Position numbers and translations under genes: made by a program
From: an uncultured Clostridia bacterium
GTDB taxonomy: Bacteria; Bacillota; Clostridia; Lachnospirales; Lachnospiraceae
Length of the DNA stretch: 64,000 nt
Reading direction: 5' to 3'
Assembly: GCA_948472945.1 (NCBI GenBank)
Contig: CAOKVX010000001.1
Coordinates: 124,001-188,000, forward strand
Notes under the pieces: generated by a model
Seen by the model: the letters and a program-made list of their open reading frames with translations, nothing else
What the model was told of the DNA's origin: nothing
The model's database searches: none
Shown here: positions 8,250 through 57,494 of the stretch, piece by piece
Position numbering within the stretch: position 1 is the first letter of the stretch
How the letters are laid out: every line of letters starts with the position of its first letter

Positions 8250-8678
8250 CTATATGCCTGTGGAAAAATTCATGCCGGGAAGATATGTATTATCAATCTT
8301 TCTGGCATTTTGTGCGTATTCGTCGCTGTTGTACTTGATTTTGGTGTTGGTAGTTCCGCCGGACACGTAGCTTCTTCCACATTCCGGGCATATTGACGTG
8401 TGTATTGACACGTTTGCGGACACGACCTTGGCATTGCCGGCTTTTGCAGCCTTGGAGTACGCGTTGGACACATGCTCCTGTTCGTGCGCACGCACTGCAG
8501 TAGCAGACGCTTCTACTGATATATGTGACGGGGACTTAAAAGATACCATCTCATCCGAACCGTCCTGATATTTTCGATTTTTACACGTTGGACATTCAAT
8601 CTGGCCGGAGCGAATCATTGCTCGTTTTTCCCCGGTTGGAATTCGAGTTATCTCGGCATCAGATAAACCTGTAATCAT
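8250..8678 (-). CDS. Putative metalloprotease-like protein with HEQEH motif (SprA-related type)
   Basis: A 142-residue soluble protein. The central HEQEHVSNAYSKA is an HExxH zinc-metalloprotease motif. Two cysteine pairs flank it: CPTCKNRKYQDGSDEMVSFKSP near residue 29 and CPECGRSYVSGGTT near residue 99. The motif combination and the phrase KSPSHIS fit the small SprA-related putative metalloprotease family; that assignment is from memory. AGGAGGT on the minus strand is eight bases upstream of the ATG. A palindromic repeat (copy 1) occupies the leader directly upstream. There is no signal peptide, so activity would be cytoplasmic. A substrate cannot be named. Confidence 0.7.
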   Translation of the reverse strand: MITGLSDAEITRIPTGEKRAMIRSGQIECPTCKNRKYQDGSDEMVSFKSPSHISVEASATAVRAHEQEHVSNAYSKAAKAGNAKVVSANVSIHTSICPECGRSYVSGGTTNTKIKYNSDEYAQNARKIDNTYLPGMNFSTGI

Positions 8679-8704
8679 GGCAGTACCTCCTATATATTTT
8701 TGCC

Positions 8705-8890
8705 CAACGGCACCAATTTGAAACCGCCGAGGACGGCGTATTTTGGCGAACTACTGTGTTTTTGGTTCTTGCCTTGCGTCAGCAAGACTGCGTCCTCCAG
8801 CCTTGTATTTCGCCAAAATTCACCATCCTCGGTCAAAGATTTCGCAAAATAGCAGTTTTCGAAACGGGTTCAAATTGGCGCCGTTGAGCT
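8705..8890. repeat. Palindromic MITE-like element, family A, copy 1 (long form)
   Basis: The outer arms are CAACGGCACCAATTTGAAAC (8705-8724) and TTCAAATTGGCGCCGTTG (8869-8886), imperfect reverse complements. Nested inside are CCGAGGACGGCG..TTTTGGCGAA (8727-8750) and TTCGCCAAAATT..CCTCGG (8809-8832), again inverted with a few mismatches. The same outer arm recurs at 28930 and 57361-57411. The rest of the 427-base gap between 8679 and 9106 holds only the promoter at 9077. No coding capacity is seen inside. Confidence 0.8.
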
Positions 8891-9076
8891 AAGTTTTAGA
8901 TTAAGTATATCATATTATATGAATATTTTGTAGGTTATAAATTTTTACCTAAAATTTCCCGTACCGTCAAATATCTTATAAATTGACATATATTATTACA
9001 TGATATATAATTTTAACATAACCAAATTAGGAAAATTATTTCCATGTTTGGCATATACCAACGTAAAAATGTGTTT

Positions 9077-28609: not shown

Positions 28610-28762
28610 AATACTTCGCTCCTTTCTTTGACACAATTATAGCATAATTATGTATTGAAAACAATAGAAACATGTGATACACTCAAATGGAAATTTTTGG
28701 ATGAAATTTTGCATGCAAAGTGAGGAAAAAATTGCGAGAGCGGTCCCCGTCTGTAATATATG

Positions 28763-28860
28763 TATAGATATTCGGTCGTGTGGTTAGATAATATAGTATA
28801 GACATTCGGTCGTGTTGTGAGATAATAATATAGACATTTGTCCGTCGTGTGAGATAATAA
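28763..28860. repeat. Three tandem imperfect repeats of 32-34 bases
   Basis: Units begin at 28763, 28797 and 28829, each TATAGACATTCGGTCGTGT..GAGATAATAA with small differences. They lie between the antitoxin start and the glycopolymer operon promoter. The gap 28610-28762 before them holds no gene; it should contain the antitoxin promoter, which I could not define. Confidence 0.75.
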
Positions 28861-28889: not shown

Positions 28890-28898
28890 TGGTATAAT
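28890..28898 (+). promoter_or_regulatory. Extended -10 promoter of the glycopolymer operon
   Basis: TGGTATAAT (TGnTATAAT) at 28890-28898, 83 bases before the start codon at 28981. It is the same extended -10 as at 9077. No good -35. The predicted leader contains the family A palindrome. Confidence 0.55.
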
Positions 28899-28917
28899 AA
28901 CAACATCTTTATGTTAT

Positions 28918-28952
28918 CTCAACGGCGGGTTCAAATTGGCGCCGTTGAGCTA
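28918..28952. repeat. Palindromic element, family A, copy 2 (short form)
   Basis: CTCAACGGC (28918-28926), then GGG, then TTCAAATTGGCGCCGTTGAG (28930-28949) and CTA. The right arm is identical to copy 3; the left arm is cut to nine bases. In RNA, CTCAACGGC would pair with GCCGTTGAG in the leader just upstream of AGGAGGG. Confidence 0.85.
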
Positions 28953-57325: not shown

Positions 57326-57494
57326 AGTAACCGGCTGTCATATTTAAAAAAAATACCGCCTAGCTCAACGGCGCCAATTTGAAACGGGTTCAAATTGGCG
57401 CCGTTGAGCTAAGTATTACGTCATATTGGCAATGATGCGTGTGAAGTGAGCCGCAGCAGGGCATGTGTTTTGTTAAATATGACAGCCGGTTACT
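57326..57494. repeat. 22-bp inverted repeat element enclosing a family A palindrome
   Basis: AGTAACCGGCTGTCATAT..TTAA (57326-57347) is the exact reverse complement of 57473-57494. Family A copy 3 lies inside, nearer the left arm. The right inner spacer (57412-57472) has no coding sense. The structure looks like one inverted-repeat element with another inserted, or a long transcriptional hairpin after the LysM gene. Confidence 0.8.
57361..57411. repeat. Palindromic element, family A, copy 3 (arms only)
   Basis: A perfect 23-bp inverted repeat with the loop ACGGG: left arm begins TAGCTCAACGGCGCCAAT, right arm is TTCAAATTGGCGCCGTTGAG plus CTA. It equals the two ends of copy 1 with the whole interior removed. 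Confidence 0.9.

Follow-up and report, generated by a model that had tools for sequence, protein, structure and literature searches.

The stretch of DNA analysed here (the window, 64,000 nucleotides of a 2.68-Mb Lachnospiraceae genome) harbours three copies of a palindromic repeat, termed family A, whose arm (TTCAAATTGGCGCCGTTGAG) is matched five times in the window against 0.00 matches expected from shuffles. Copy 1 (8700..8891, minus strand) lies just upstream of the ribosome-binding site of a minus-strand gene (8250-8678), and the plus-strand gene apparently has its promoter downstream of copy 1; copy 2 (28915..28952, plus strand) lies between a TATAAT site (28893-28898; promoter match of 10/12 to the consensus) and the AGGAGG ribosome-binding site of a gene of the glycerophosphotransferase family (PF04464); and copy 3 (57361..57411, plus strand) is found 60 nt past a stop codon. 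The original prediction had placed copies 1 and 2 in the leader of the next gene, which stands for copy 2 but apparently not for copy 1 with respect to the plus-strand gene. It had also called all three intergenic, and by crude gene calls none of 52 copies in the genome falls within a plausible gene; the sole apparent overlap involves an upstream ORF extension, and the likely start falls after copy 2.

Each of the three right arms stands opposite an inverted partner, as had been predicted. By arm match search, copy 1 has an exact right terminal arm (8869..8888, plus strand) and a left arm with two mismatches (8703..8722, minus strand), enclosing 146 nt where about 150 had been claimed; the nested inverted repeat of this interior was confirmed, and it folds with z = -7. 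Inverted repeat analysis and folding locate there an internal hairpin, hairpin 2 (8727..8832; arms 8727-8754 and 8805-8832), which is the same in eight full-length copies from three genomes. Loss of interior along the three copies, which had been read as a decay series, is borne out, but copy 1 has itself already been shortened. Alignment to a full-length copy (L046) shows it to be derived from a 274-bp element: 185/192 of its positions are identical, and its length of 192 bp results from one deletion, 82 bp within hairpin 1, at a GAA repeat. Its left TA border is mutated to TG and the right one is intact.

Copy 2 is a 38-bp form, both TA borders included, recognized by its size class and by comparison with the closest relative, G005, in which the exact site (L123) is empty and has a single TA. 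The right arm (28930..28949, plus strand; arm match search) is intact, and the left arm survives as a remnant of 10 nt (28918-28927), one base longer than first thought; the whole is the predicted product of a deletion between CGGCG repeats. On folding, it forms a hairpin with a 10-bp stem (-17 kcal/mol), and no terminator-like site was found at copy 2. If promoter and fold are as predicted, the transcript of the PF04464 gene should begin with a hairpin that G005 lacks. Just upstream of this promoter, a 32-34-nt unit (GTATAGACATTCGGTCGTGTTGTGAGATAATA) is repeated imperfectly in tandem, three times over 28762-28859.

Copy 3, identified by inverted repeat, arm search and size class, is a 51-bp form including both TA borders, with exact left (57364..57383, minus strand) and right (57389..57408, plus strand) arms; as had been described, the two are fused around a five-base loop (ACGGG), in a perfect 23-bp palindrome. 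It is enclosed by a second, unrelated exact inverted repeat, GTAACCGGCTGTCATATTTAA (57327-57347 and 57473-57493, 125 nt apart), which occurs in the window only here and which G005 seems to lack at the equivalent position.

Anatomy and size classes of family A

In the source genome (37 contigs, 98.7% complete), where each copy was retrieved with its surroundings, the arm has 67 matches at up to three mismatches and the reversed-pattern control has none. These make up about 52 elements dispersed over some 50-70 places, and a 13-base search with the outer end added further solo or degenerate ends. Full-length copies measure 272-274 bp; the source genome has three of them (L036, L046, L058), and another five come from two further genomes. 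The 274-bp layout runs TA, GCTCAACGGCGCCAATTTGAACCCG, hairpin 1 (~107 nt), hairpin 2 (~106 nt), inverted end, TA; an end with its border reads TA-GCTCAACGGCGCCAATTTGAAC. The terminal inverted repeats are ~25 bp long (in a consensus of the eight full-length copies, 27 terminal positions pair), and the consensus fold of the same copies (98 pairs) pairs the terminal repeats and both hairpins. The element is short and without a transposase gene; ORFs lying wholly within the 274 bp encode 21-42 aa, and none is substantial. The basal pair of hairpin 2 is A-T in the source genome and T-A in two other hosts, a two-sided change that should not be read as proof of selection, since few lineages are involved and palindromes are correctable by templated repair.

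Solo ends of 13-18 bases (TAGCTCAACGGCGCCAAT) with no second arm were seen at eight loci (L255, L259, L260, L261, L265, L267, L269 and L270) and may result from one-ended insertion; that of L260 is missing at the G005 site, where the right flank is preserved to within about 4 bases. At L057 (2224-2695) a small ORF, PqqD-like by reading, is flanked by a left arm that is exact and, 445 nt from it, a right arm that is degenerate; the two arms are probably unrelated remnants.

The 39 two-ended copies of the source genome form a ladder of sizes: 24 bp (1), 35 (14), 38 (6), 51 (2), 57-72 (6), 160-194 (7) and full length (3). The full-length sequence was surveyed for direct repeats with a minimum length of 5 bp and a minimum spacing of 60 bp, and the only ones giving products under 64 bp predict 24, 35, 38 and 60 bp; all four sizes were observed, in one, 14, six and three copies, respectively, whereas random endpoints show homology of at least 5 bp in 0.9% of cases. 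The deletions of copies 1 and 3 fall at 3-bp repeats. The copies of 160 to 194 bp likewise each arose by one deletion, which in three cases lies at a repeat of 6-7 bp (CAAAATA in the 160-bp copy, TTGGCG in two copies of 171-176 bp). The junctions thus falling on short internal direct repeats support the earlier reading that interior was lost. Other hosts show the same size classes at other sites, but there the 38-bp form predominates (19 copies) and few copies have 35 bp (3); the 35:38 ratio, 14:6 in the source genome against 3:19 elsewhere, differs at Fisher p = 0.0004, a value that is indicative only, as copies within a class may be non-independent. The repeat at the 38-bp junction is ACGGCG (6 bp) in G429, one of these hosts, and CGGCG (5 bp) here, and this longer repeat predicts the direction of the shift. 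The short forms do not carry clearly more mutations than the long. From these junctions we infer deletion in place at each site, no locus having been observed in two states.

Target sites, distribution and the transposase question

Across 129 distinct ends, the outermost three positions are T in 120 (93%), A in 116 (90%) and G in 122 (95%), and beyond the TA the composition is near-random (T56 C35 G23 A15 at the first outside base). When occupied sites were aligned with their counterparts in 1.39 Mb of G005, three counterparts were empty and held one TA each, namely those of copy 2 (left flank identical at 49/49 bases), of a 194-bp copy (L053) and of a 35-bp copy (L064); clean empty sites number only three, other comparable loci having diverged. 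The insert is therefore the element plus one TA, that is, the TA target is duplicated, which answers positively the call of the original prediction for target-site duplications. Strictly, empty sites in one relative alone do not distinguish insertion here from precise loss there. Insertion in the source genome is favoured, since copies are many here and G005 has one exact and a few degenerate ones. A shared-site comparison with the single exact copy of G005 was set aside: its flank is absent from the source genome, and the partial matches are a second repeat beside other copies. The TAG with which the element opens serves as stop codon of an adjacent frame at L043, L049, L060, L061, L064, L070 and L255, an arrangement that would be possible if the target TA lay within a stop codon.

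The arm is absent from eight of nine other congeneric genomes and, at up to one mismatch, from the other 396 sampled genomes of the family. A scan of 84,980 species gave matches in a few other Clostridia, the carriers being CANRWA01 (G429, many copies), CAJSYQ01 (G430), CAMXSH01 (G431), CANBKJ01 (G432) and CAOKDX01 (G433); the arm was also matched in JAAVXK01, at the match position of contig C17 of G005. A Chitinophagales hit (L230) was rejected as a lone arm without TA or partner, ~0.5 exact 20-mer matches being expected by chance in the collection. Viral contigs gave no match, and neither did phage and plasmid records for the 274-bp element. The full-length copies of the source genome share 94-95% identity with their counterparts in G429 and G433, whereas the sole stretch of host sequence in common with the fetched loci is ~70% identical, so that horizontal spread across genera is the simplest reading of these identities. 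Two observations that would have spoken against the original prediction, no further copies in the genome or copies at orthologous positions only, are both contradicted by what was found.

By analogy, the TA duplication points to transposition of the IS630/Tc1-mariner type; IS5/IS427-group elements can leave TA too. IS630 transposition duplicates TA targets, and 24-bp inverted repeats are its likely minimal ends (PMC2170065). Searches of the source genome for DDE_3, DDE_Tnp_1 and Y1_Tnp gave no match, and no DDE_3 with family A ends was found there. The search for a transposase with matching ends, which the original prediction had recommended, came back empty in this genome and in five other carriers, whose assemblies are fragmented (for G429 and G433, among the end positions listed). 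Among matches in the source genome no correctly oriented end pair lies 0.7-3 kb apart, as an autonomous partner would have. A candidate end pair in contig C13 of G432 proved to enclose ordinary genes between two short copies, and DDE_3 and DDE_Tnp_1 loci of other carriers were rejected as partners on their differing ends; in G429 and G430, from incomplete assemblies, the IS630 copies have ends that begin TAGTGTA or TAATGTA, unlike those of family A. No end pair enclosing a transposase was found, and family A is therefore either an orphan here or has its partner in an assembly gap. A second TA-bordered repeat adjoins family A copies at TA (L036:2518-2560, L039:2808-2930 and, on G005 C17, L118:1640-1800); it starts like the IS630 ends of G429 (TAGTGTACTGACCTGTTGATATT) and, from this resemblance, is possibly an IS630-derived MITE family. 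At L251 (1290-1330, G429 C81), a 35-bp family A copy is adjoined, exactly at its TA border, by an IS630 element whose ends differ.

Competing explanations and known relatives

The window copies are very probably members of one family of non-autonomous, TA-targeting MITEs that were moved in trans and then shortened in place. The MITE reading offered earlier is thus upheld by copy number, terminal inverted repeats, TA borders, three single-TA empty sites and unrelated loci in other genera. In the proposed mechanism, an IS630/Tc1-mariner-type (DDE) transposase would have acted in trans, binding the 25-bp ends and joining them to TA targets, and would since have been lost from this genome. Long copies would then have been shortened by slippage or microhomology-mediated deletion, favoured where the folded element brings short repeats together, and the products, palindromes of 35, 38 and 51 bp, would persist as intergenic hairpins. 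Effects on neighbours, such as the leader hairpin left by copy 2, would be by-products of insertion.

How the short forms multiplied is the point at which the principal rival departs from this account, by holding that the 35- and 38-bp palindromes are themselves mobile and spread as such rather than by deletion at each site. Many copies do share an identical junction (here 14 copies of 35 bp), the predominant short form varies from host to host, short forms are little mutated, and two of them face clean empty sites. However, the dominant sizes are exactly those predicted from internal repeats, the host bias has an explanation in the sequence (ACGGCG in G429, CGGCG here), and the 35/38-bp forms keep 11-13 bp of one end, fewer than the 24 bp thought to be needed for an IS630 end (PMC2170065). 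We consider such mobility unlikely, and regard as distinctly doubtful a version in which a deletion-born founder short form then spreads, with a different winner per host (the 35-bp form in the source genome, the 38-bp form in G429); were 35-38-bp palindromes still mobile, they would be among the smallest transposing units known.

The original prediction had named a REP-type element as an alternative, and palindromic, intergenic elements with REP-like short forms and solo ends might suggest REP/REPIN sequences, moved as single-stranded DNA by a Y1 (HUH) RAYT that recognizes hairpins. The TA at one border would then belong to the target motif and that at the opposite border to the end of the element, and the borders alone fail to separate this from a duplicated TA. 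This origin is nevertheless very improbable: a Y1_Tnp match occurs in one of seven genomes tested (G429) and in neither the source genome nor G005; the base outside the TA is near-random, with no GTAG/CGTC-type foot; and both ends are the same inverted sequence, the full form having 25-bp terminal repeats. With neither RAYT nor foot, membership of the REP/REPIN class fails. It is scarcely credible that the repeats are host regulatory or terminator hairpins kept by selection, even if they fold strongly, are exclusively intergenic, often lie within tens of bases of stop codons and have both bases of the basal pair of hairpin 2 exchanged between hosts (A-T to T-A). Their positions are unconserved, with sites empty in the closest relative, and the arm is lacking from most congeners and from the sampled family genomes; to this are added the want of a terminator-like site at copy 2 and the result that no Rfam family matches the window at gathering threshold (an Rfam miRNA-hairpin match of the element is far below threshold and was judged to be chance).

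Several bacterial MITEs (Correia, RUP and ERIC) combine inverted repeats, TA termini, duplications and folded transcripts (PMC2229807). RUP, a 107-bp MITE of Bacillota with IS630-Spn1 as its proposed mover in trans (PMC2229807, PMC3049150), is likewise non-coding and highly folded, with inverted terminal repeats, TA termini and target-site duplication; family A differs in host family, in its 274-bp full form with 25-bp ends and two hairpins, in having no resident IS630 partner found, and in its series of palindromic deletion products. Correia/NEMIS elements of Neisseria are TA-bordered, with ~24-bp inverted repeats, a longer and a shorter size class and folded transcripts (PMC2229807), but differ in hosts and size, the shortened forms of family A reaching palindromes of 24-60 bp. 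With IS630/Tc1-mariner elements, e.g. ISY100, family A shares TA target, TA duplication and ~24-bp inverted repeats (PMC2170065), but it lacks a transposase gene and its ends are unlike those of IS630 in two other carriers (TAGTGTACTGTACC...). REPINs and RAYT-associated REPs are also short, intergenic, non-autonomous palindromes in inverted pairs (PMC3116915), unlike family A in its long terminal inverted repeats and duplicated TA border, with neither RAYT nor GTAG/CGTC foot.

Likened to RUP and Correia by their descriptions, family A is a new MITE family of this kind, less usual in its full ladder of predicted deletion products and its absent partner. A full-text search of the open-access literature brought up no MITE family described in Lachnospiraceae, to which family A adds one with TA-duplication empty sites, signs of horizontal spread and a decay ladder predicted by its repeats. 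It also offers a testable model for the origin of small palindromic intergenic repeats, in which mini-transposons would become REP-like hairpins through deletion between short repeats.
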